This document shows positions 8,630 to 33,900 of a stretch of DNA of 35,207 nucleotides, in pieces (the stretch's first letter is position 1; the number at the start of each line of letters is the position of its first letter). The notes under the pieces are model-generated. The model did not search any database. It saw only the letters and a list, made by a program, of their open reading frames with translations, and was not told the origin of the DNA. This stretch comes from Acholeplasmataceae bacterium (lineage in GTDB: Bacteria; Bacillota_I; Bacilli_A; Acholeplasmatales; Acholeplasmataceae), in the NCBI GenBank assembly GCA_007692425.1, contig RECG01000027.1:1-35207 (forward strand). The letters are read 5' to 3'. A program made the translations under genes and the position numbers.

Positions 8630-9664
8630 TTACGTGATATCGCCACCGACGGCCAAATCCCCCTTGAGAATCCATCGTTTCATCCGAAACAATAGATCAA
8701 TGCCAAAGACAACAATCACCGGTAAGATCAACATCAACGCCACGGACAACCAGGCCCCGGCCACATAGTTCATCGCAAACAATGTCTGGAGCTGTCCGAC
8801 CAGGCCGGAACTGCCCATGCCGGCACCTTCGCGGGTGGTCTGGACACCGAGCACCAAGACAAAGAACGGTGCCAGGATGGCGGACGTGATGATGGTCGGC
8901 AGCCAGATGATTGGTTTCTTGACAATGTTTTTGAACTGCAGCATCGAGGTGCCGAAGGCGATTGACAGCACCACACCAATGTTGTTGTCTTTACGTGACT
9001 GGACGGCAAAACCGATCATTTGCGCTGTTGTACCGATCACGGCCGCACCGCCGGCGACACCGCCGAGGTTGATGGTGATCGCGATCGCCGCGCTCGACAA
9101 GGGTGACGTGAGCAGCATGCCCATGACCACCGCGATGATGATGCTCATCACGAACGGTGCGTAGGCGGTCGCGCTATGCACGAACAAGGCGATGTTATCA
9201 ACCACGAAACGCATCGGTGCGCTGATGAGCAGTGTCAGGATGACAGCCAATGCGACGCCGAGCAAAGGAATCAACAAGATATCGACCGGTGTTTTTTTCA
9301 CCAATATCAAATTCATCAACAAAATCCCGAAAATCACAACCAGGTAAACGGTCAAAGGCTCATTGTTCAAGACGAACTCCAGGCCGTTGTTGAAGGTCAA
9401 ACGGAAACTGGTCGACAGTCCGCCGATCATGGCGGCGACCACCAGTTTCAAACCTTCAAGTTTCAAACTGAGCGCGATGCCAAGGCCAATGCCGACGCCC
9501 ATCAGCTGGGACAACCGGCCGGCAATCGTCACATACAGAATCTCGAGACCGAGCAGATGACCGATCTGGCTGACGATGACACCGATGATCAGAGTCGCGA
9601 ACAAACCATATGTCATGCCGTTCAAAGTTTTCATCACAAACGTTTTGATTGGATATTTTTCCAT
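8630..9664 (-). CDS. PfoR / PTS EIIC-like (PTS_EIIC_2) membrane transporter
   Basis: This 344-residue membrane protein has about nine or ten hydrophobic segments and matches the PfoR/PTS_EIIC_2 family. The conserved central block is clear: TSPLSSAAIAITI, GVAGGAAVIGTTAQMIGFA, SRKDNNIG, GTSMLQFKNIVKKP and TREGAGMGSSGLVGQ. It resembles the membrane domain (EIIC) of sugar phosphotransferase systems, but no EIIA or EIIB domain and no HPr/EI gene is nearby. Transport specificity, and whether phosphotransfer is involved at all, are unknown. PfoR was first named as a regulator of a Clostridium toxin, which is not evidence for such a role here. The ATG at 9664 has AGGA seven bases upstream. The gene is transcribed from its own promoter (9691-9717). 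It is not followed by a clear terminator before the next promoter. Confidence 0.85.
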   Translation of the reverse strand: MEKYPIKTFVMKTLNGMTYGLFATLIIGVIVSQIGHLLGLEILYVTIAGRLSQLMGVGIGLGIALSLKLEGLKLVVAAMIGGLSTSFRLTFNNGLEFVLNNEPLTVYLVVIFGILLMNLILVKKTPVDILLIPLLGVALAVILTLLISAPMRFVVDNIALFVHSATAYAPFVMSIIIAVVMGMLLTSPLSSAAIAITINLGGVAGGAAVIGTTAQMIGFAVQSRKDNNIGVVLSIAFGTSMLQFKNIVKKPIIWLPTIITSAILAPFFVLVLGVQTTREGAGMGSSGLVGQLQTLFAMNYVAGAWLSVALMLILPVIVVFGIDLLFRMKRWILKGDLAVGGDIT

Positions 9665-9690
9665 CGTTGTTCCTCGCTTTCACAAGACCT

Positions 9691-9717
9691 ATTTTAACAC
9701 ATTTTGACTGTTTTCAA
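9691..9717 (-). promoter_or_regulatory. Promoter of the PfoR/EIIC-like gene
   Basis: On the minus strand TTGAAA (9712-9717), a short 15-base spacer, then TAAAAT (9691-9696) preceded by TGT, an extended -10. It lies about 30 bases before the ATG. Confidence 0.6.
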
Positions 9718-9720
9718 TCC

Positions 9721-9751
9721 AAGAAAAAAACCTTGCCGGGCAAGGTTTTGG
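9721..9751 (-). terminator. Terminator after the CPBP-like gene and small ORF
   Basis: CCTTGCC and GGCAAGG form the core of a stem extended by A and T pairs. On the minus strand it ends in a seven-T run. It lies 24 bases past the stop of the 39-codon ORF, but about 140 bases past the CPBP-like stop. Confidence 0.88.
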
Positions 9752-9774
9752 TTTCTTGATCATATGAAAACAAA

Positions 9775-9894
9775 TCAGTCTTTCTGTTTTTTTGTAAGTT
9801 GCGTCATACCCGTGGCATGAAACAACGGGTTCTTGTGTTTGCTTTGGAAACTGACAAGAGCGGCTTCTTCCTTTACATTCAGGCGCACCATCAT
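9775..9894 (-). CDS. Possible 39-aa protein translationally coupled to the CPBP-like gene
   Basis: An ORF of 39 codons starts with ATG ATG, overlaps the CPBP-like stop codon by four bases (ATGA) and stops 24 bases before the terminator. The product is MMVRLNVKEEAALVSFQSK then a polar tail ending TKKQKD. It is hydrophilic and has no recognised domain. Support is positional only: the ATGA overlap, and the way it fills the otherwise unexplained gap between the CPBP-like stop and the terminator. No independent ribosome site is seen, so translation would rely on coupling. It could also be an untranslated 3' region. Confidence 0.4.
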   Translation of the reverse strand: MMVRLNVKEEAALVSFQSKHKNPLFHATGMTQLTKKQKD

Positions 9895-10688
9895 GACATC
9901 AATTGCATCATCATGAATGATAAATTCATCAGGATATGCATGACCATGAAATAGGGCATCAAGTTTGGTTTTCTTTCTATCAGGATGCCGATCAATATGG
10001 CAAAACCGAGAAACATCAGACCCCTGTATAACACGTAACTCACATCCAGATATAAAGGCATGACGATATGTTGTAATGATAAGATCAAGATCGGAATACC
10101 CAAGTAAAAGAGCGGTTTTCGTGTATGGCTTTTCAACATAGGTTTCAATACCAAAAAATAAAACGGTATTTCGGTAAGTCCTTGCAGAATCGGGAACAGT
10201 GAAAAATTAAGTGCCGTGATCAACAGACCATGATCAAATAACAACAGTTTGGCGCCGATTTCCAAATCGCCATATATCACATAGGACAGCAATAAATTAG
10301 GCCCCATTGCCGATAGAAGTAACAAAGGGATCCATTTTAGAAAAGCAATTGCTTGTTTCTTTTCAAACTTGAATATTTGCGTATATCCGGTCTTGCTGTC
10401 AAACGTTAACATGAGGGCCAACAAAACCATGTTCGTAAGTGTCACATAGACTGTCCAATACGTTGTGCTCACATAAAAAGCATCGCTTTTTCCACTCAGC
10501 AACAGCCATGCCGCGCCTTGAAACACCAACAACAAGATCATTCTCGAAAAAACGATGAAACATAATGCGATTTTCGGGTGTCTCAATGTCATCCTGATTG
10601 CCCTCTTCTCATGAAAGAAAATACGTTTTGGAACAAATGCAGGTGACTCATAAGACCGTGCTTTTGATGATTGATGTTCATCTGACAA
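9891..10688 (-). CDS. CPBP-family-like membrane protein with degenerate protease motif
   Basis: This membrane protein of 265 residues has about seven hydrophobic helices and resembles CPBP (CaaX protease/bacteriocin-processing) proteins in layout. The first CPBP motif, normally EExxxR, reads TEIPFYF (around residue 168) and lacks the paired Glu and the Arg. The later His-containing helices are present as LQHIVMPL and MVMHILMN. An intact protease is therefore doubtful, and it may be a non-catalytic relative. The start is uncertain. TTG 10688 is the first in-frame start, directly after an in-frame stop, and has almost no leader from the nearby promoter. ATG 10592 has AGAGGG before it but would remove the segment FVPKRIFFHEKRAIR, which looks like a genuine family N-terminus. 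A possible 39-aa ORF overlaps its stop. Confidence 0.7.
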   Translation of the reverse strand: MSDEHQSSKARSYESPAFVPKRIFFHEKRAIRMTLRHPKIALCFIVFSRMILLLVFQGAAWLLLSGKSDAFYVSTTYWTVYVTLTNMVLLALMLTFDSKTGYTQIFKFEKKQAIAFLKWIPLLLLSAMGPNLLLSYVIYGDLEIGAKLLLFDHGLLITALNFSLFPILQGLTEIPFYFLVLKPMLKSHTRKPLFYLGIPILILSLQHIVMPLYLDVSYVLYRGLMFLGFAILIGILIERKPNLMPYFMVMHILMNLSFMMMQLMS

Positions 10689-10701
10689 TCACATGCACTA
10701 T

Positions 10702-10707
10702 ATTGTA
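10702..10707 (-). promoter_or_regulatory. Extended -10 element upstream of the CPBP-like gene
   Basis: TACAAT on the minus strand is preceded by TGG (extended -10). The best -35 is GATACA at 18 bases. Transcription would start near 10695, very close to the TTG start at 10688. Confidence 0.45.
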
Positions 10708-10861
10708 CCACATTGTTTGCATATGTGTATCGTGCTTGATGCGTTGTCTTTAGTGATGCCACTTATAAAGATCTGATCAATATGATGTCAATCATGACTG
10801 ATGAGAAACCATGGACAAATACATGTGAAAATAAGAAACCATCAAATCGTGTGAAGCTTAA

Positions 10862-10898
10862 AAAAAGAAAAAGCCTTGACACATGGTATCAAGGCTTT
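10862..10898 (-). terminator. Rho-independent terminator of tRNA-Leu
   Basis: AAAGCCTTGA (10870-10879) and TCAAGGCTTT (10889-10898) form a 10-base-pair stem. On the minus strand it continues into TTCTTTTTT. It follows the tRNA CCA end by ten bases. Confidence 0.9.
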
Positions 10899-10907
10899 GT
10901 ACGCTCA

Positions 10908-10995
10908 TGGTCCCCGCGGCCGGACTCGAACCAGCACGGATTATTCATCCACCAGATTTTGAGTCTGGCACGTCTACCAATTTCATCACGCGGGG
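10908..10995 (-). tRNA. tRNA-Leu (CAA anticodon)
   Basis: The minus strand folds into a class II tRNA of 88 bases with encoded CCA. The acceptor arms are CCCCGCG and CGCGGGG. The anticodon stem CCAGA/TCTGG encloses CTCAAAA, giving anticodon CAA (reads UUG). A long variable arm follows, as expected for leucine. The T arm has GGTTCGAGTCC. It has its own promoter (11027-11055) and terminator (10862-10898), so it is an independent unit behind argS. A stem-loop at 11000-11020 lies directly before the mature 5' end. Confidence 0.96.
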
Positions 10996-10999
10996 ATGG

Positions 11000-11020
11000 G
11001 CTGCCGGCATGTCCGGCAGC
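11000..11020 (-). other. Stem-loop in the pre-tRNA-Leu leader
   Basis: GCTGCCGG and CCGGCAGC pair over 8 bases with a five-base loop. It lies between the predicted transcription start and the mature tRNA 5' end. No T-run follows, so it is not a terminator. It may shape the RNase P leader. Confidence 0.55.
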
Positions 11021-11026
11021 ATAATC

Positions 11027-11055
11027 ATGATATCATTGTTTCATCACATTTTCAA
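11027..11055 (-). promoter_or_regulatory. SigA-like promoter of tRNA-Leu
   Basis: On the minus strand TTGAAA (11050-11055), a 17-base spacer, then TATCAT (11027-11032) preceded by TGA (extended -10). The -35 ends eight bases from the argS stop codon. Confidence 0.78.
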
Positions 11056-11062
11056 GTCTTTT

Positions 11063-12721
11063 TCACATTTCATCAAGCGGTGTCATACCGAGCAGACGCA
11101 ACCCTTCGAAAAGGACGATCTGGATCGCTTTGATGAAGAGCAGGTTGGCCTGCAGACGCCCTTCTTCTTCGACCAGGATTTTTTCCTTGCCATAGAACGT
11201 GTTGAAACTTTGGGCAAGGTTGATGAGATAACGGGCGAGGATGTTCGGTGCGTGTTGCAGGCGGGCTTTTTCGATGATCTCCGGAAACTGTGCGAGCAGT
11301 TTGACGACCTCGAAATAGTGATTTTCCTCATAGGCCGACATGTCCGCCTTGACGAGATCGAGTGTCGAATCCTTCAGGATCGATGCGATCCGCACACCGC
11401 TGTATTGCAGGTAGGGACCGGTATGACCTTCGAATGTCAACATGTGTTCAAGGTTGAGGTCGATGTCGAGATGACGTTCGTTCTTGAGGTCGTTGAAAAT
11501 CAGGGCGCCGATGCCGACGGCCCTGGCGACGTCATCCTTGTCTTGTAAATTGGGATTTTTGGCCATGATGGCCGTCTTGGCGTCAGCGATGGCTTGATTC
11601 ACGACATCTTCAAGTCTGGTGTAACGGCCGCTTCTGGTCGACATCTTCTTGCCATCGACCAACACGAGGCCGAAGTTGACATGGACCAGGTCGAAATCAT
11701 GACCCATCTTGTCGCTTAAGGCCTTAAGTTGCCGGAAATGCAGTTTTTGCTCATTGCCGACCACGTATATGATCTTGTCAAAATGATAGGTCTCATGACG
11801 GTAGAGCAACGCGGTCAGGTCACGCGTCATGTATAGTGTGGCACCGTCGCTGCGCTTGATCAATGCCGGCGGCATATCCTCAAGGTCGACGATTGTCGCC
11901 CCTTCATCAATCCGAAGCAATCCGAGTTTGTCCAGCTGTTCGACGACCGGTTCCATCTTGTCATTATAAAAGGATTCACCGGCATGGGCGTCAAACGAGA
12001 CGCCGAGCAGGTCATACATGTCCATGAACTCACGCAGTGATTCATCCTTGAACCATTGCCAGAGCATGACCGTCTCCGAGTCGCCCTGTTCAAGTTTCAA
12101 GAGCGCGTCACGCGCTTGTTGTTCAAGTGCGTCGTCGTCTTCAGCGGCCTTGTGGAAACGGACATAAAGTTTTTGCAGTTCATCAATCGGATTGGCCTTG
12201 ATCAATGTGTCATCGCCCCAGAGGCGATAAGCCACGATCATCTTGCCGAACTGGGTGCCCCAGTCGCCCAGATGATTGATCGAGACGACCTTGTAGCCAC
12301 CTTTTTCATAGAGGTGACGCAAGGCGTTGCCAATCATGGTCGACCTGAGGTGACCGACCGAGAAACGCTTGGCGATGTTTGGTGACGAATAGTCCATGAC
12401 CACCGTCTTATCCTTGCCTTCATCACTGGTGCCATAAGTATGGTCACGCGACAAAATGTCTTTCAAAATAACTTCGCCCACGACGCTACGCACCAGGAAG
12501 ATGTTCAAGAAACCGTTGCTGAACTCGGTCCGGACGATTTCCGGAATGTCTTGCACGACTTCGGCGACCTTGTCATACACGACCTTTGGCGATACGCCTT
12601 GTTTCCGGGCATGCGCGAAAAGCGGGACAGCCAGGTCGGCCATGCCTTTTTTCGGTGTCTCGATGATGACATCGTCATGATCGAGCACGGTCTTGATGCG
12701 TTGTTTGATCAGATCAATCAT
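11063..12721 (-). CDS. argS: Arginyl-tRNA synthetase
   Basis: This class I aminoacyl-tRNA synthetase charges tRNA-Arg in the cytosol. Its 552 residues match the family. The N-terminal additional domain (about 1-95) is followed by the catalytic core with SPNIAKRFSVGHLRS at 113-127 (the HIGH-equivalent is VGHL), NHLGDWGTQFGKM, and KKMSTRSGR as the KMSKS-equivalent loop. The C-terminal DALR anticodon-binding domain ends in the typical LRLLGM. The ATG at 12721 has AGGG seven bases upstream. The thioredoxin-like gene ends only 43 bases upstream, and a terminator-like hairpin lies between them. There is no room for a promoter after that hairpin, so argS is most likely transcribed by read-through from the promoter at 13423-13451. 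Confidence 0.97.
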   Translation of the reverse strand: MIDLIKQRIKTVLDHDDVIIETPKKGMADLAVPLFAHARKQGVSPKVVYDKVAEVVQDIPEIVRTEFSNGFLNIFLVRSVVGEVILKDILSRDHTYGTSDEGKDKTVVMDYSSPNIAKRFSVGHLRSTMIGNALRHLYEKGGYKVVSINHLGDWGTQFGKMIVAYRLWGDDTLIKANPIDELQKLYVRFHKAAEDDDALEQQARDALLKLEQGDSETVMLWQWFKDESLREFMDMYDLLGVSFDAHAGESFYNDKMEPVVEQLDKLGLLRIDEGATIVDLEDMPPALIKRSDGATLYMTRDLTALLYRHETYHFDKIIYVVGNEQKLHFRQLKALSDKMGHDFDLVHVNFGLVLVDGKKMSTRSGRYTRLEDVVNQAIADAKTAIMAKNPNLQDKDDVARAVGIGALIFNDLKNERHLDIDLNLEHMLTFEGHTGPYLQYSGVRIASILKDSTLDLVKADMSAYEENHYFEVVKLLAQFPEIIEKARLQHAPNILARYLINLAQSFNTFYGKEKILVEEEGRLQANLLFIKAIQIVLFEGLRLLGMTPLDEM

Positions 12722-12741
12722 GGCATTCCCTGCCTTTGACT

Positions 12742-12763
12742 AAAAAAAGCACCATGTGCTTTT
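12742..12763 (-). terminator. Terminator-like hairpin between thioredoxin-like gene and argS
   Basis: AAAAGCAC and GTGCTTTT pair over a short loop. On the minus strand seven T follow. It begins one base past the stop of the thioredoxin-like gene and ends 20 bases before the argS ATG. It may be a partial terminator or attenuator. Confidence 0.75.
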
Positions 12764-12764
12764 C

Positions 12765-13388
12765 TTAGGATTCATCCTCATTGATGATGGCGAGCACATC
12801 ACGGTAGAAATCACGGACACTGCGACGAATGCCCTGTTCGTCATTTCTGGTCGGTGTGAAGACTTTCAGCACCTCTCCGTTTTGAAAGACGACAAGCTGC
12901 GGGGTCGTGCCCAGGATGCTGGCATGATCATTCCTGAATGTGTCAAAATGATCCATTTCCTCGACGGGATTGAAGTAATAGATGTGTTTGACAAGGTCAT
13001 CGATGCCTTCTTCAAAGAAATAGCGTTGGAAAGGGCCGATGTGGGTCTGGCAAGCCGGACATTCCGGCATGCCGATGTAGACAAAGACGAGCTCGTCACG
13101 GTTGATGATCCGCTCCAGACCGGGTCTCATACCCAGGAACCCGCTTTTGTATGCAACCTTGTGAAAAGGATGGTCTTCTGTGAAATCACTGGTGGCGATC
13201 AGATTGTACGACGTGTAGACACGTTCCTGGTTGCTGGGTTGGAATGCGACCAGCAAGACCGTGATCAGCACCACGAATGAGGCGATGAAGACCAAGGTGC
13301 TGACTGGCACTTTCGGTTCAATCTTGCTATATTTGTCGATTCTGATCTTTTTTCGTTTTTTTCTTTGGCTTTGACGTTGATTTTGCAT
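12765..13388 (-). CDS. Membrane-anchored thioredoxin-like protein
   Basis: This 207-residue protein has a very basic N-terminus (residues 1-26), one transmembrane helix (about 30-49) and a C-terminal thioredoxin-like domain. The redox motif CPAC is at 110-113 after the strand LVFVYIGMPE, and the cis-Pro position appears in GTTPQLVVF. Topology by the positive-inside rule places the domain outside the membrane. A thiol-disulfide exchange or bacteriocin-transport-accessory-like role is plausible, but the partner is unknown. The strong GGAGGT site (13400-13405) is only two bases from ATG 13397 and 11 from ATG 13388. I prefer 13388, but the difference is three residues. A good promoter lies at 13423-13451, and argS follows. 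Confidence 0.88.
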   Translation of the reverse strand: MQNQRQSQRKKRKKIRIDKYSKIEPKVPVSTLVFIASFVVLITVLLVAFQPSNQERVYTSYNLIATSDFTEDHPFHKVAYKSGFLGMRPGLERIINRDELVFVYIGMPECPACQTHIGPFQRYFFEEGIDDLVKHIYYFNPVEEMDHFDTFRNDHASILGTTPQLVVFQNGEVLKVFTPTRNDEQGIRRSVRDFYRDVLAIINEDES

Positions 13389-24343: not shown

Positions 24344-24371
24344 AAAAAAAGGGTTCCTTTGAAAGGAACCC
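24344..24371 (-). terminator. Terminator of the giant repeat lipoprotein gene
   Basis: GGGTTCCTT (24351-24359) and AAGGAACCC (24363-24371) form a perfect nine-base-pair stem with loop TGA. On the minus strand seven T follow. Confidence 0.93.
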
Positions 24372-24403
24372 CGTCAACATGTTTAGATGAATGAAAAGGT
24401 GGA

Positions 24404-27400
24404 TCAACTAATCGGCACCAACCGGTCGATGACACTTGCCCAGGCTTCTTGATAAAGTGACAAGCTGTCAGCCGGCACCCAGATGTCAAGATCGGGATGG
24501 TTGCTCAAGAAGGCGTTGGGCCCCAAGATGGGTGGTGTGGTGGCCAGCACAGTGACCGAAAGGAGCTGTTGACACCCCACAAACGCCCATTGACCGATGC
24601 TTTCCAATGTCGATGGCAAAATGAGAACGGAAAGATGGGGAATATATCCGAACGCTCCCCGGCCGATGGTTGTCAATCCTTCCGGCAGGATGACGCCCCA
24701 AAGATTGATTTGGTTGCTAAAAGCATGATCGGCGATGCCAATCGTATCAGCCCGCAAGGTCAACGTCGTCTGGGTTGGCATGACGCCCTTGTAGGTGTAG
24801 GCGACCTTGCCGGCATAGACCACGCCATCTGGTTGAGCGCTTAACCAGGCTGTATTTAAAAATGCATGTTCGCCGATACTATGAACGCTGTCCGGGATTG
24901 TGATATCCACCAGTCCGGTTGCATCCCAGAAGGCATAATTACCAATATGAAGCAGACCTTCCGGTAACGTGATGCCGACCATGTTGGGCAGACCATAAAG
25001 TTCATCATAGAATGCACGTCCAGCGATGCCCTTGGTCCCAGCGACAATCTCGATATGGGTGTCTGCCGGCATCGCACCCTTGTAGGCATAAGCGACCTTG
25101 CCGGCATAGACCACGCCATCTGGTTGATTGGCAAACCAGGCCGTATCCGCCAGCGCCCTGCTACCAATCCGATACAAGCTGTCCGGGAAAGTGATGGATG
25201 TCAGATTTTCACTAAAAAGGAAAACCGCTGTCCCGAGCGTATGCAGTCCCTCAGGCAAGACAATGTCAAGGAGAGCGTGATTGCTGACAAACGCCGCATT
25301 CTCGATGATTTCAAGTTGTGAACCACTTTCAAATACAACATTTGCCAGACGATCAGCATAGGCAAACGCCCGTTGTTCGATAATCCTGACCTGAGCTGGA
25401 ATGGTGATGGTAGTCAGTCCGGAATAAGCGAAAGCTTCGTAACCGATGCGTTCAAGCTGATTGCCCAAGGCGAAAGTGATTGTGTCAAGATCATCGGTGT
25501 GACTGAAGGCGGAGAACTGAATCTCTTCGACCGATGCCGGGATGTGAATGGTGGTCAGGCCGGTAAGTTCGAAAGCATGTCCAGAAATCCGTTTGATGCC
25601 ATCTGGCAACGTGATGCCGGTCAACGCTGTGGCACCTGAGACGAATCCTCCCGGAATCTCATCGATGCCAATGCCTGCCTCGAAGGTCACGGATGTCAAT
25701 GAATAAGCCCCGGCAAACGTATATCCCCCGATCTCTTCAAGGGATGCCGGCAGGGTCACGGATGTCAATGAATAGGCATCCTCAAAGACACGGATGCCCA
25801 TGACACGCAGTTTGGCGTTTGGTGCAAAGCTAATAGTCTGAAGGCTATAAGCCTGTTCAAAGGCATAACTTTGAATCTCATCAAGGTAACGTGGAAAGAC
25901 CACTGCTTCAAGACTAGAAGCCCGTCTAAAGGCTTCGTAACCGATGGTTAAAAGCTGACTATGTTCAGCGAACGTCAGACTGACAAGCGATGATGCATCT
26001 ATGAATGCACTTTGATGAATCGTGATGATGTTTTCCGGTATGTGAAGCGTGGTCAACGCACTCATGCCCGCAAAAGCATAACGTTTGATTTCGCTTAAAC
26101 CAGCGGGTAATGTAAGCGACTGCAGGGCTGATGCACCTCTGAAGGCATATTCACCGATGTCTGTCACACCGTCAGGGAGATTGATGGTGGTGAGCATCGT
26201 CGTATATTCAAAGGCATAGTCACCAATCACGGTCAGCATGCTGCCCTCACCAATCACAAACGTCTGCAAGTTCGTGGCATTGCGAAATGCGCCTTCTTCG
26301 ATCACTTCAACTTGGTCAGGCAATGTAAAGTAAACCAAACTGGTACAACCCTCGAAAAGATAACGTGGGATCATGGTCAATACCGCATCCACATGAATGT
26401 CGACCATCAGCAAATTGACATTGTTTCGAAACGCATGATCACCCAGATGTGTCAAGGTCGAAGGCAGGGAGATACTGGTCAATCCGGAATCAGCGAAAGC
26501 AGACGATCCGATTGATGTCAGGCCTTCAATAAAGTCGAAACTTTCCAACAGAGGTGTCTGACTGAACGCGCTCGACTGGATGGTGTGCAACTTGCTTCCA
26601 GCCGCCAGTGTCACTGTCGTCAAATGATTGTTGCGCATGAACGCACCAGACTGGATCCACGTCACCGAAGCCGGAATATTAATCGTCACCAGTTTTGAAT
26701 CGTCAAATGCATTGGCGTGGATGGTCGTGAGTACCGATGTCGACTCAATATGGACATGGGCGATACTGCTGTTCGACAGGATTCTTTGACCGAGTTGATG
26801 GACTGTCCTCGGGATGTATAGCGATTCCACATGATAGGCATGTTCGAAAGCCTGGGTCAGGATTGATGTCGAACCATCCGCGATGATGACTTCCGTCAAG
26901 GTTTCCGGCACCAACGTGAAGTTATTGTTGAAAAAGGCTAAAAAACGCATATGACCGGGCATGGTCAGCATCTCAAGTGATGGACATCCGACTGCCACAT
27001 TGGTGCCCACTGTGGTCAACGTGTAAGGGAGTCTGAGTTCTACCAAGGCAGTCATGTTCCTGAAGGCGTTGTTACCGATGATGCGAATGCCATCAGCGAC
27101 TTCTAGGATGACAATCTGGTCTAGTCCTTCGAACGCACCAGCTGCGATGGTGGTCACATCATAGATGCCAATACGACCAGGGATGAACAAGGTGGTATTG
27201 CTGCCATCATAACCGGTGATGATGATATCATCATCCTCGATGATGATCAACAGCCCGTCAGGTACCGCCACCCAGGAGGCATGCAGTGTCAAGCTTTCTT
27301 CCAGTACTGTATGCTCATCGAACAACCATTCATAGTCTTCATCCAAATACCAGCCGGCAAAGATATGACCTTCTTTGAGAGGCATGGGCAGGATCCATTC

Positions 27401-29764
27401 ATCCCATCCAAAAAACTCAAGCGGCTCGAGCGGATCACCCCCGTATGTCTCAAAGGTGATGGTGATCATCGTGCTTTCAAACCGGGCATAGACGGTGATA
27501 TCCTCAGCAGGAAAGGCATCCAGTCCGAATGGCTCCGTGTAGGCGTCATCAAGATACCATCCCATGAATTCAGCCCGTTCGTCACCGGTCTCATAGTCGT
27601 GATACGGGCCGTACGGGATGTCTGTGCCAGGTCGTCCGATCAAGGGTTCCACAGGCCACCATTCGCCCGTATCAAAGGTGATGGTCACACCTGCATACAT
27701 CCATTTGGCATAAAGCATGACCACGCCAGCCGCATCATCGATGTCATCTACCGGTGCGGTCAGGTCAATATCAACATACCAACCGGCGAAATCATGAAGC
27801 GCACGGGCTTCAAGTAAGGGGTGTGTGACAGCTTCTCCAGGTGACAGGATCAGTGTGGCGACACGCTGCCAGACAACAGGTGTGATATCGGTAGGTAACA
27901 AGGCATCAGCCACATCACCAGTCCCGAGCTGGCCATGGGCGTTTCCACCCCAGGCATGTAGTTTGTTCAGATGGTCAAGCAAGAAGACACGATCATGACC
28001 GGCCCAAAGTTGTTGCGCGGTGCCGATCGATGATGGTAAGGTGCTACCCAAGAATGAACGCAAATAAATCGGTAAATGGATCGCATCAAAAGGTTCACCC
28101 GTCCCGAGCGCGCCATTGTGATTTTGGCCATAGCCAAACAGCATGCCACCACTATAGATGAAAATAGAATGATGGCTGCCTAAGACAGCATCAATGGCCG
28201 CCATGCCCCATCCCATAGGATCTTGCAGGACGGTGAAGTTGACCGGTGTCAGCAAATCTTCCAGATGGACATGCGCCAACTGGCCTTTGTCGTTGGCACC
28301 AAACCCGTATTGGATACCAGTCGTGCTGATGACGACCGTATGATGGGCACCGGTTCTGATTTTTTCAGGATGATGGGCTGCATCAAACGCATCTCTGATA
28401 TTAGTCGGCACGGCCCGGTCTAATCGGTCACCAGTGCCAAGCTGGCCCTGGTCGTTTCTACCGAAGACGTAAAAGGCAACATCCGTGATGACATAACTAT
28501 GGTCTGCACCGGCCGCCACCAAAAACGGTGTACCACTTAGTGATGCCGTGATGTCAATGGGCACAACCCGGTCGATGACCGAACCGTCACCAAGCTGACC
28601 ATGATCATTTGCGCCAAACGCATACACCTTGCCAGAAACGGTCAGCACGAGGCTGTGCGCACGTCCGGCAGCCATCATGACCACAGGATCGTCATGCCAG
28701 CCATGATGATTGATCTCGAAAGGTTCGTCACGGCTGTCCTCACCGGGCATGCCACACTGGCCATGGTCGTTGTTGCCAAAACCGAACAGGCGGCCGCTTT
28801 CTGTCAAGACGAGCGTATGGGCCTCACCGGCGGCGATGCCCACGACCTTGTCATCAAGCCATTCAGGCCAGTCAAGGGGAACGGGTTCATGGCGGTCGTC
28901 GCGGTCACGCAAACCGAGCTGTCCATGCAGGTTTTCGCCCATCACAAATACCAGTCCGGTATGTGTCAAGATGATGGTATGTGCACCACCGATGGCAATA
29001 TCCGCAATCATCAATGCATCGTAATCATAATACATGACCCGGGTTTGTTCAATGTCCATCCAGCGTGCGTATAGGATTAGATCGTTAGCCGGCATCCGGT
29101 CAAAGACGAAAGGCATCGTCAAATCCGCATCCTCATACCAACCGCCAAACGCATAACCATCACGATCCGGATCAGCCGGTGCATTGATGACATCGTCATA
29201 ATATGCGGACATGTCAGGGATGTCAGAGCCGTGATTGGTCATCAGCGTGATGGTATAGAGAATCGGTACGAACTTGGCATAAACCGTCATATCGACATCA
29301 GGCATGACATCGAAGACAAACGCTTCGGTCAGGTCTTCATCACGATACCAATCGGCGAACATATAACCGGTTAACTCCGGATCCTCGGGTGCGTTGACAG
29401 GACTGCCTGCAACCTGGCTGAGCGGTGCGACAAGGGTGCCACCTGAAGTCTCAAAGGTGATGGTCACCATCTGAGCCTCTGCTTCCCACTGGGCATAAAG
29501 CACCAGTGCGGTGTCTGTGGCAAGATGAATGATCGAAAACGGCGTCAAGCCTTCTTCATCGAGCGTCCAGCCGGTGAATACATATCCGTCACGGACGGGT
29601 TCAGGCAGATCAATCGAGATGGCATCGACGCCGATCGTCACCGCGTCAATCACTTCATCTGTACCAGTCACAAAGGTGATGGTCACCTGTTTTGTCATCC
29701 CGTTACACGCTGCTAAAAGCGTCAATAACAACAGCACCAACCCTAAAAAGCGCCATGGTCGCAT
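24404..29764 (-). CDS. Giant surface lipoprotein: InlB repeats, RCC1 propeller, InlB repeats, BspA-type LRRs
   Basis: This 1786-residue predicted surface protein starts with a lipoprotein signal: hydrophobic LVLLLLTLLAAC ending in lipobox LAAC (Cys20). Three InlB/Flg_new-type repeats follow (about 26-93, 99-166, 169-236, each with GY.F.GWY and ending LYA.W or similar). Next are seven RCC1 repeats (about 253-630, e.g. GEAHTLVLTESGRLFGFG and NDHGQLG). A partial and two full InlB-type repeats lie at about 640-832. From about 865 to the end there are about 34 BspA-type LRRs of 22-25 residues (IG..AF......L..I.LP..L). Two LRR units carry the insert QPDGVVYAGKVAY.YKG. The C-terminus has the BspA-like TTPPILGPNAF closing unit. 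There is no LPXTG or dockerin, so anchoring is by lipid. The ATG at 29764 has AAAGGAGG eight bases upstream. Adhesion or protein binding is inferred; no ligand is known. Confidence 0.93.
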   Translation of the reverse strand: MRPWRFLGLVLLLLTLLAACNGMTKQVTITFVTGTDEVIDAVTIGVDAISIDLPEPVRDGYVFTGWTLDEEGLTPFSIIHLATDTALVLYAQWEAEAQMVTITFETSGGTLVAPLSQVAGSPVNAPEDPELTGYMFADWYRDEDLTEAFVFDVMPDVDMTVYAKFVPILYTITLMTNHGSDIPDMSAYYDDVINAPADPDRDGYAFGGWYEDADLTMPFVFDRMPANDLILYARWMDIEQTRVMYYDYDALMIADIAIGGAHTIILTHTGLVFVMGENLHGQLGLRDRDDRHEPVPLDWPEWLDDKVVGIAAGEAHTLVLTESGRLFGFGNNDHGQCGMPGEDSRDEPFEINHHGWHDDPVVMMAAGRAHSLVLTVSGKVYAFGANDHGQLGDGSVIDRVVPIDITASLSGTPFLVAAGADHSYVITDVAFYVFGRNDQGQLGTGDRLDRAVPTNIRDAFDAAHHPEKIRTGAHHTVVISTTGIQYGFGANDKGQLAHVHLEDLLTPVNFTVLQDPMGWGMAAIDAVLGSHHSIFIYSGGMLFGYGQNHNGALGTGEPFDAIHLPIYLRSFLGSTLPSSIGTAQQLWAGHDRVFLLDHLNKLHAWGGNAHGQLGTGDVADALLPTDITPVVWQRVATLILSPGEAVTHPLLEARALHDFAGWYVDIDLTAPVDDIDDAAGVVMLYAKWMYAGVTITFDTGEWWPVEPLIGRPGTDIPYGPYHDYETGDERAEFMGWYLDDAYTEPFGLDAFPAEDITVYARFESTMITITFETYGGDPLEPLEFFGWDEWILPMPLKEGHIFAGWYLDEDYEWLFDEHTVLEESLTLHASWVAVPDGLLIIIEDDDIIITGYDGSNTTLFIPGRIGIYDVTTIAAGAFEGLDQIVILEVADGIRIIGNNAFRNMTALVELRLPYTLTTVGTNVAVGCPSLEMLTMPGHMRFLAFFNNNFTLVPETLTEVIIADGSTSILTQAFEHAYHVESLYIPRTVHQLGQRILSNSSIAHVHIESTSVLTTIHANAFDDSKLVTINIPASVTWIQSGAFMRNNHLTTVTLAAGSKLHTIQSSAFSQTPLLESFDFIEGLTSIGSSAFADSGLTSISLPSTLTHLGDHAFRNNVNLLMVDIHVDAVLTMIPRYLFEGCTSLVYFTLPDQVEVIEEGAFRNATNLQTFVIGEGSMLTVIGDYAFEYTTMLTTINLPDGVTDIGEYAFRGASALQSLTLPAGLSEIKRYAFAGMSALTTLHIPENIITIHQSAFIDASSLVSLTFAEHSQLLTIGYEAFRRASSLEAVVFPRYLDEIQSYAFEQAYSLQTISFAPNAKLRVMGIRVFEDAYSLTSVTLPASLEEIGGYTFAGAYSLTSVTFEAGIGIDEIPGGFVSGATALTGITLPDGIKRISGHAFELTGLTTIHIPASVEEIQFSAFSHTDDLDTITFALGNQLERIGYEAFAYSGLTTITIPAQVRIIEQRAFAYADRLANVVFESGSQLEIIENAAFVSNHALLDIVLPEGLHTLGTAVFLFSENLTSITFPDSLYRIGSRALADTAWFANQPDGVVYAGKVAYAYKGAMPADTHIEIVAGTKGIAGRAFYDELYGLPNMVGITLPEGLLHIGNYAFWDATGLVDITIPDSVHSIGEHAFLNTAWLSAQPDGVVYAGKVAYTYKGVMPTQTTLTLRADTIGIADHAFSNQINLWGVILPEGLTTIGRGAFGYIPHLSVLILPSTLESIGQWAFVGCQQLLSVTVLATTPPILGPNAFLSNHPDLDIWVPADSLSLYQEAWASVIDRLVPIS
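24801..25127. repeat. Identical 36-bp direct repeats inside the LRR region
   Basis: Positions 24801-24836 and 25092-25127 are identical over 36 bases, beginning GCGACCTTGCCGG and ending CTGGTTGA. They encode the QPDGVVYAGKVA insert in two LRR units and lie 291 bases (97 codons) apart. A second exact pair of 21 bases lies at 25685-25705 and 25754-25774, 23 codons apart. Confidence 0.9.
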
Positions 29765-29788
29765 CTTTCATTCCTCCTTTAAACGAAA

Positions 29789-29820
29789 AGCGACGGAATC
29801 CCCTGGGGAAGGCCGTCGCT
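29789..29820 (-). promoter_or_regulatory. Leader stem-loop of the giant lipoprotein mRNA
   Basis: On the minus strand AGCGACGG and CCGTCGCT pair over eight bases with a smaller internal CCC/GGG stem. TTTTCGTTT and then the AAAGGAGG ribosome site follow directly. It could be an attenuator or an mRNA-stabilising structure. Confidence 0.6.
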
Positions 29821-29831
29821 GTCTTGCTTTC

Positions 29832-29837
29832 ATCTTA
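29832..29837 (-). promoter_or_regulatory. Extended -10 candidate for the giant lipoprotein gene
   Basis: TAAGAT on the minus strand is preceded by TGT (extended -10), with only a poor -35 (TTACTT at 17 bases). It is the best promoter candidate between the potD terminator and the gene. Confidence 0.4.
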
Positions 29838-29882
29838 ACACGAAACCAGGCAACAAGTAAATATGTAAACGCATCTTCGATG

Positions 29883-29912
29883 AAAAAGGACACCGATGCA
29901 AGGTGTCCTTTT
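29883..29912 (-). terminator. Terminator of the potABCD operon
   Basis: AAAGGACACC (29885-29894) and GGTGTCCTTT (29902-29911) pair over ten bases with a seven-base loop, followed on the minus strand by T residues. It lies 18 bases past the potD stop. Confidence 0.92.
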
Positions 29913-31779: not shown

Positions 31780-32620
31780 GCGTGTTCACCCCCTGGTACT
31801 TGTCTGTCCGCTTGATCATGTAGAGCAGCCCCATGATCAATAACGACAAGACGATGGCGATGGCCGAACCGTAGCCGAAACGGCCCTGTTGAATCATCGC
31901 ATTTTCGATCAGGTTGCCGATCAGGAACCGGCCCTGGCCGAGATAGCGCGGCACGACGAGCGTCGTCGCCGCCGGCAGGAAGACCATCATGATGCCGGAC
32001 AGGATGCCTGATAACGACAACGGAATGATGACCCGCACGATTGTCTGGAAGCGGGTCGCGCCTAAATCCGCGGCCGATTCATACAAGTTAGGATCAATCT
32101 TGTTTAAAACCGTATAGATGGGCAGTACCATGAAGGGCAGAAAAATGTAGGTCATGCCGAAGATGATGGCGAAATCGCTACCCAGAAGATGCGGGAAAGT
32201 CATTTCAAAGACTTGTTGTAGCGCCCTCGTCCGAAGCAACATATTGATCCACATCGGCGCGCTGATCAACAAAATCAATAAGATTTGCGTGCGCGGGCGG
32301 CTGCGCGCGATGATGTAGGCAAGCGGATAACCGATGATGAGCGTCAACACGGTCGACAAGGCGGCCAGGTAGATCGACTGGATCATAACCCTGACAAACA
32401 GTGGTTCCGAGAAGAAACTCCAATAGTGCTCAAACGTGAATTTGATGGTAAAGACACCTGCTGGTCTTTCGGTCTGGATGGAATAGAGCACCATCATCAG
32501 GATGGGAATGACAATCAAGGTGATGAGCAAGACGTAATAAGGGATACCAAGGACATGTTCAAGGGTCCGTTTCGGCCTGTCCTTGCGTTTTTGAGGCTTG
32601 ATCAGTTGATAACGTTCCAT
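31766..32620 (-). CDS. potB: Spermidine/putrescine ABC transporter permease PotB
   Basis: This 284-residue inner-membrane permease has six helices, a basic cytosolic N-terminus (KPQKRKDRPKR) and the EAA loop ESAADLGATRFQTIVRVIIP. PAATTLVVPRYLGQG and the pattern around it fit PotB/PotH proteins. ATG 32620 overlaps the potA stop as TGATG and has GGAG eight bases upstream. The in-frame ATG at 32626 is only two bases from that site and is less likely. The partner permease potC overlaps its end. Confidence 0.94.
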   Translation of the reverse strand: MERYQLIKPQKRKDRPKRTLEHVLGIPYYVLLITLIVIPILMMVLYSIQTERPAGVFTIKFTFEHYWSFFSEPLFVRVMIQSIYLAALSTVLTLIIGYPLAYIIARSRPRTQILLILLISAPMWINMLLRTRALQQVFEMTFPHLLGSDFAIIFGMTYIFLPFMVLPIYTVLNKIDPNLYESAADLGATRFQTIVRVIIPLSLSGILSGIMMVFLPAATTLVVPRYLGQGRFLIGNLIENAMIQQGRFGYGSAIAIVLSLLIMGLLYMIKRTDKYQGVNTLEES

Positions 32621-33900
32621 CACCATTGCTCCATGACATGGATGTCTTCCGGACCGAAGGCGATGTCCACTTCCGTGCCTTCACCGGCATAATCGGTGGT
32701 ATGAATGGTGTAGATCCGACCGTTGGTCTTGACATCGATTTCGTAATGGACCCCTTTAAAGGCGACCGAATCGACTTTGCCGGTCAACATCCCTTTGCCT
32801 TTTTCCACGATATCGATATCTTCCGGCCGGATGACGATGTCAACCGGTTCATTTCTGGCAAAGCCCTTGTCGACACACGTGTAGTCATGACCGTCAAACG
32901 AGACCAGAAAATCATCTTTCATGATGCCACTGATGATGTTCGACTCACCAATGAAGGTGGCGACAAACTTATTGATGGGCTCGTTATAAATATCTTCAGG
33001 AGTGCCGATCTGCTGGATCTCGCCATGGTTCATGACGACGATCTTGTCTGACATCGTCAAGGCTTCTTCCTGGTCATGGGTGACGTAGAGGAAGGTGATG
33101 CCAGCGTTGCGCTGGATTTCCTTGAGCTCGTATTGCATTTCCTGACGAAGCTTGAGATCAAGGGCCGCAAGCGGTTCATCGAGCAAAAGAATCTTCGGTT
33201 CATTGATGAGCGCGCGGGCGATCGCCACACGTTGTTGTTGACCACCGGAAAGTTTGTGGACCATGCGGTCTTCGTAATCATTCAAACCAACCATTTTCAA
33301 GTATCTGACGACCTTGTCGCCGATCTCTTTTTCGATGGTCTGCTTCGATTTGAACGTCACCTTGACCGCTTCAATCGCGGCTTTCTGTTCATTAGGATCC
33401 TTGATGGTCTTGCGGATGTGCCGGATCTGTTGTTTCTTGTCGCCGTTAGGGTCGCGCAACAAAGCGGTTTTTTCCTTCAATTCACGCCGTAAATGTCTGG
33501 CTTCGGCACGGTCGGTGGTCGCTTTGATCTGCACCTGATAATCAGCCTGAAGTTGTCTGATCTGTTCAAGTTGTCCCAATGATTCGCTTTTGACCCTCAG
33601 TCCGAACGCGACGTTTTCAAAAACATTCAGATGCGGAAAAAGGGCATAACGTTGAAAGACGGTGTTGGTCGGCCGTTTGTGGGCCGGCGTGTCTAAGATG
33701 TCCTGCCCGTCAAAAAGGACCGCGCCGGCACTCGGTTCGACAAAGCCGCCGATGATTCTCAGCGTCGTGGTCTTGCCGCAGCCGGATGGTCCCAGCAGCG
33801 TCACAAATTCATTACGTTCAATCTCAAGGTCGATGCCACGCAGCACGACTTGGCCGTTAAATTCTTTGGTGACTTCCTTGAGTTCGATCAAAGCGGGCAT
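32620..33900 (-). CDS. potA: Spermidine/putrescine ABC transporter ATP-binding protein with large insertion
   Basis: This 426-residue ATPase powers the PotBCD importer. Walker A is GPSGCGKTT (37-45), the Q-loop is [10 protein letters not shown] (Q83), the signature is LSGGQ (217-221), Walker B is ILLLDEP (237-243) and the H-loop is VTHDQEEA (H275). A TOBE-type regulatory domain follows (about 315-426, with [11 protein letters not shown]). Between AFGLR (98-102) and the signature there are about 115 residues where family members have about 35. The extra part (about 104-192) is highly charged, helical and rich in Lys, Glu and Gln. The ATG at 33900 has AGGAG seven bases upstream. The gene is the first of the operon and starts from a perfect TTGACA/TATAAT promoter. 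Confidence 0.95.

Follow-up and report, generated by a model that had tools for sequence, protein, structure and literature searches.

The minus-strand gene analysed here probably encodes a lipid-anchored, modular surface protein of the adhesin type, in which a seven-bladed RCC1 propeller is nested in the fourth of six InlB repeats and a leucine-rich repeat (LRR) rod extends distally. The gene lies in the window, i.e. the whole 35,207-nucleotide stretch of DNA under study (contig RECG01000027.1 of an Acholeplasmataceae bacterium). It appears to reflect a modular design rather than a one-off chimera, as the propeller-in-repeat cassette is shared by many related bacteria. No description of the nested arrangement was found in the literature searched.

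The gene forms a single open frame read from 29764 to 24404. The strand had not been stated in the first-pass annotation; stops occur throughout the plus strand of this interval. Pfam analysis returned matches to LRR_5 (1.2e-160, 526.7 bits), the RCC1-like domain WD40_RLD (7.4e-72), Flg_new (3.8e-57, six stretches) and RCC1 (1.4e-56, seven stretches), all far above cut-off, and the domain search proposed beforehand thus recovered all three expected families (RCC1, Flg_new and LRR_5). From the N- to the C-terminus the order is lipobox, three Flg_new, seven RCC1, one partial Flg_new, two complete Flg_new and the LRR array (Table 1). The claim that InlB-type repeats occur on both sides of the RCC1 units therefore holds, with three Flg_new matches before and three after. 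The profile of the InlB B-repeat (Flg_new, PF09479) is matched by five complete repeats of 65 positions and by one interrupted repeat. The lipobox noted earlier is present in the translation as LLLLTLLAAC, with LAAC at residues 17–20 and the cysteine at Cys20, and, read by eye, this N-terminus is that of a bacterial lipoprotein. The acidic composition was likewise borne out (12.3% acidic versus 4.2% basic residues over the whole protein). The C-terminus (...SVIDRLVPIS) carries neither an LPXTG motif nor a hydrophobic tail. The nearest named proteins in NCBIfam, all below cut-off, include an adhesin and internalins.

Table 1. Position of the gene, its expression signals and the modules of its product in the window.
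Feature	Residues	Position	Strand	Basis
Whole gene, lipoprotein	1786 aa	24404..29764	minus	Single open frame
Signal peptide and lipobox (MRPWRFLGLVLLLLTLLAAC), Cys20	1–20	29705..29764	minus	Read from translation
Ribosome-binding site AAAGGAGG, 8 bases ahead of ATG		29773..29780	minus	Read from sequence
Terminator-like hairpin after potD, between gene and upstream pot operon		29883..29911	minus	By eye; absent from terminator scan list
Intrinsic terminator 3' of gene		24350..24372	minus	10-pair stem and T tract
InlB/Flg_new repeat 1	28–93	29486..29683	minus	HMM profile 1–65; Pfam PF09479
InlB repeat 2	101–165	29270..29464	minus	HMM match
InlB repeat 3	171–235	29060..29254	minus	HMM match
Strand TRVMYYD, read as beta-1 of interrupted InlB repeat 4	241–247	29024..29044	minus	AlphaFold2 strand and family pattern; own sequence poor against beta-1 motif
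Seven-bladed RCC1 propeller	251–630	27875..29014	minus	Pfam RCC1 (seven) and RCC1-like domain; model; Foldseek UVR8 TM 0.90
Rest of InlB repeat 4 (strands 2–4)	635–688	27701..27862	minus	HMM profile 12–65 only; model strands 633–640, 657–663, 680–690
InlB repeat 5	694–762	27479..27685	minus	HMM match
InlB repeat 6	768–831	27272..27463	minus	HMM match
BspA-type LRR solenoid, about 35 units	861–1758	24491..27184	minus	Pfam LRR_5 526.7 bits; tiling

The RCC1 units start at about residues 270, 323, 377, 429, 484, 540 and 600, and the seventh blade is completed by an N-terminal half-blade (251–269). An AlphaFold2 model of residues 101–836, calculated with 28 relatives, reached a mean pLDDT of 84.8 and a pTM of 0.61. 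In this model the propeller comprises 28 strands, arranged as 2 + 6 × 4 + 2 to give seven blades closed by both ends. Comparison with the PDB by Foldseek placed UVR8 on top (E 9.7e-37, TM 0.90 over the target, rmsd 2.5). The model of L073, a relative encoded in the same genome, shows the same closed propeller (pLDDT 88.5, TM to UVR8 up to 0.93). The count of exactly seven units is thereby confirmed, as seven Pfam stretches, the modelled strands and the UVR8 superposition all describe one seven-unit ring. Failure of the ring to close had been named beforehand as the outcome that would overturn the assignment; in the model it closes. The likeness to UVR8 and RCC1 propellers, which extends to the number of blades and closure by N- and C-terminal strands, is structural and does not imply nucleotide exchange or light sensing. 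The window protein differs from them in its sequence (about 29% identity), its location on a lipoprotein and its apparent nesting in a repeat. Because of the lipoprotein signal, Ran exchange or chromatin binding of the eukaryotic RCC1 type appears improbable for it.

Tiling of the LRR region from residue 861 gave 38 steps of 21–27 residues, 35 of which score as LRR and three of which represent insert or linker segments. The mean score was 27.6, versus −5 for the best 34 windows of shuffled sequences, and the earlier estimate of about 34 BspA-type LRRs was thus right. The long array and its unit of about 23 residues resemble those of BspA-type LRR proteins (LRR_5, PF13306; HupY/LrrG adhesin, PcpA), from which the window protein differs in that the array follows an InlB-RCC1 core. 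Two 79-base copies within the array (24777–24855 and 25068–25146) are 85% identical and code for 'AW..QPDGVVYAGKVAY.YKG' insert segments.

The propeller had been placed between two sets of InlB repeats, an arrangement better read as insertion within one repeat, given that the post-propeller repeat is without strand 1 and that a strand stands before the propeller. Based on the family pattern and predicted secondary structure, the most likely site of the propeller is the fourth of six repeats, between strands 1 and 2 of that repeat. Among the reading frames of the family, Flg_new matches following a propeller begin at profile position 5–35 (median 12–13, n = 31), versus almost always position 1–2 for other Flg_new matches (n = 145); the part missing from the post-propeller repeat is strand 1. 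Between the preceding 'YAKW' and the propeller lies a segment that corresponds in phase and sequence to the usual repeat linker with its strand 1 (AKW-xxNxY-xIxYY). A strand-1-like motif scored above the 99th percentile of random segments in 32 of 38 pre-propeller segments but in only one of the 15 tails that follow a terminal repeat (P 2e-6), and the median pre-propeller score was 9.2 versus −10.6 for shuffles. The distance between the repeat halves is bimodal, with 383–413 aa in 30 cases and 777–796 aa in four, and these inserts therefore correspond to one or two whole propellers. The models of the window protein and of L073 both have a strand just before the propeller, and the strands behind the propeller are spaced as in intact repeats. 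L139 provides a counter-case that meets expectation: its propeller has no InlB repeat ahead of it, and the repeats behind it are complete (profile start 1–2). On the strength of truncation, strand pattern, insert lengths, models and the counter-case, the window protein is read as six InlB repeats with the fourth interrupted, and the strand ahead of the propeller would pair into the split repeat. The Listeria internalin B repeat is not known to hold an inserted propeller.

The InlB-RCC1-InlB core occurs in five proteins of the 1.45 Mb genome, i.e. the window protein and four more on contigs C10 (785 aa), C20 (722 aa), C25 (868 aa) and C23 (950 aa). With 13 RCC1 matches, the C23 protein is read as carrying two propellers. 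The C25 paralogue, L075, ends in a carbohydrate-binding domain (CBM_4_9) where the window protein has its LRR rod, and the other copies in the genome stop after the split repeat. Of the 88 family genomes, 27 contain RCC1, as do 48 of 395 genomes sampled in the class, where the split repeat is found too. Among about 50 RCC1 frames annotated, a clear LRR array is confined to the frame in the window; the only other RCC1 frame with an LRR_5 match, L082, scored 25.6 bits, below the whole-protein cut-off of 27.7. A whole-protein search of the genome collection returned only one LRR relative. Plasmid matches in Oscillibacter and Persicobacter span both ends of the query at 45% coverage and are taken as InlB-repeat matches. 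The first-pass annotation had called InlB repeats around a propeller unusual, which the four further proteins, the frequency in the family and a published Bifidobacterium family (see below) contradict. The search for the same domain order gave a divided answer: the core recurs and is a known kind that is not rare, whereas its combination with an LRR array in one protein is rare.

Several related frames were observed alongside. L144 encodes an RCC1 propeller protein (9355–12999, minus strand) with a long N-terminal run of '.IQW' repeats ahead of the split repeat. In the same genus as the window, L198 (10305–13214, minus strand) is a 970-residue LRR frame with 22 LRR matches, on a contig that also holds several shorter LRR frames. 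RCC1-type propeller matches in the plasmid and phage collections came from Clostridioides and Brevibacillus phages and phage-sized plasmids, and from Synechococcus phages.

Honeybee-gut Bifidobacterium encodes RCC1 surface proteins in which Flg_new lies upstream of every RCC1 domain, each with about seven repeats (PMC4449606). The window protein resembles them in having Flg_new before the propeller, about seven RCC1 repeats, several copies per genome and a surface anchor. The Bifidobacterium proteins have an LPXTG wall anchor and two to four propellers each, whereas the window protein has a lipobox and one propeller and is without the LPXTG motif and C-terminal hydrophobic tail of such wall proteins. 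Neither an LRR rod nor nesting of the propeller is mentioned for them in the excerpts of that paper (PMC4449606). Hepatoplasmataceae, which are mollicute symbionts, encode several RCC1-like proteins with seven blades, for which a possible role in host contact has been proposed; unlike in the window protein, the propeller of the one modelled is N-terminal and followed by Ig-like folds (PMC10928387). A literature search found no paper joining RCC1 with 'InlB B-repeat', nor RCC1 with BspA and leucine-rich repeats.

A potABCD-type operon lies upstream of the gene, which directly follows potD on the same strand, and nusB, xseA and dxs lie downstream. In the same-genus genome G076, as well as in G009, G022 and G011, nusB comes next after potD and the gene is absent; in G077, also of the same genus, another gene stands between the two. 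The gene, which has a ribosome-binding site and a terminator of its own, is accessory and specific to its lineage. Its 5' leader (29765–29850, minus strand) shows a strong hairpin followed by a T-rich stretch and the ribosome-binding site, and folding of the whole leader gave −30.7 kcal/mol (z −3.0). Inspection by eye of the 5' leaders of five further RCC1 frames of the genome showed no such hairpin. The PotA-type ATPase (32620–33900, minus strand, 426 aa) matched its profile in two stretches, the second of which (residues 177–424, model positions 93–340) points to an insertion several tens of residues long. A PADLOC search for a defence function gave no match.

Three other explanations were weighed. 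The propeller may stand in plain tandem between InlB repeats, with the next repeat N-terminally shortened and the preceding strand serving as a linker, which would leave the adhesin function unchanged. This is consistent with a splice test, performed twice, in which joining the strand to the later half raised the Flg_new score no more than shuffled or RCC1 control segments did. It also agrees with the atypical strand of the window protein itself, whose motif score of −11.0 falls within the range of terminal tails; the copies L074 and L075 of the same genome are poor in this motif as well. A contingency test with a regular expression was spoiled by matches to signal peptides, and its Fisher value (P = 1) carries no weight here; a motif scan upstream of propellers lacking a preceding InlB repeat was suggestive only. 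A plain tandem sits poorly with the fact that nearly all copies lack precisely strand 1, with a strand-1-like segment at repeat-linker phase before the propeller in most of them and a strand there in both models, and with the complete repeats of L139, which has no such strand ahead of them. We regard it as unlikely.

A one-off chimera, or an assembly join of unrelated surface genes, would fit the complete InlB-RCC1-InlB-LRR order, found only once, and the flanks that occur in relatives without the gene. Against such an origin stand the unbroken frame of 1786 codons with its own expression signals, the recurrence of the core module in four further proteins of this genome and a GC content (0.516) close to that of the window (0.501), which leave it very improbable. 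Slightly less probable again is a role as accessory receptor for the neighbouring polyamine transporter potABCD, suggested by the gene's co-oriented position immediately after potD: a terminator-like hairpin separates the two, the pot operon lies beside nusB without the gene in relatives, and the other copies are on other contigs.

The preferred reading, a modular adhesin with a nested propeller, is based on the lipid anchor, the stalk repeats, the two kinds of binding scaffold, the variation in copy number and the exchange of distal domains. The lipid anchor would sit at the membrane, with three InlB B-repeats forming a stalk outward. The fourth repeat would act as a collar that holds both ends of the propeller inserted between its strands 1 and 2, followed by two further repeats, and the long LRR rod of BspA type would make up the distal end. 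The propeller may thus serve as a side-mounted head and the LRR rod as a distal one, both being likely binding surfaces; candidate ligands are host, microbial or polymer. Surface display and adhesion are put forward as the presumable role. For the lineage as a whole, there is a good chance that RCC1 propellers are passed on as cassettes set within a split InlB beta-grasp repeat, with one or two whole propellers between strands 1 and 2. Such a cassette would be a general means of mounting a disc-shaped binding head laterally on the repeat stalk, while the distal domains (an LRR rod or a carbohydrate-binding domain) are freely exchanged.

The family includes a genus of many 0.3–0.9 Mb genomes, and the pot proteins resemble mollicute ones; the host is presumably wall-less, in which case the lipoprotein would be directly exposed. 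If the nesting is right, automatic annotation has broken up a single domain into three parts, labelled as 'linker', propeller and 'shortened' repeat, and the presence of InlB repeats on the flanks of such propellers would be explained. It would also guide structural biologists in the choice of construct boundaries, and provide a natural example of a large propeller set into a small stalk repeat, which would help the understanding of surface proteins in poorly studied bacteria.
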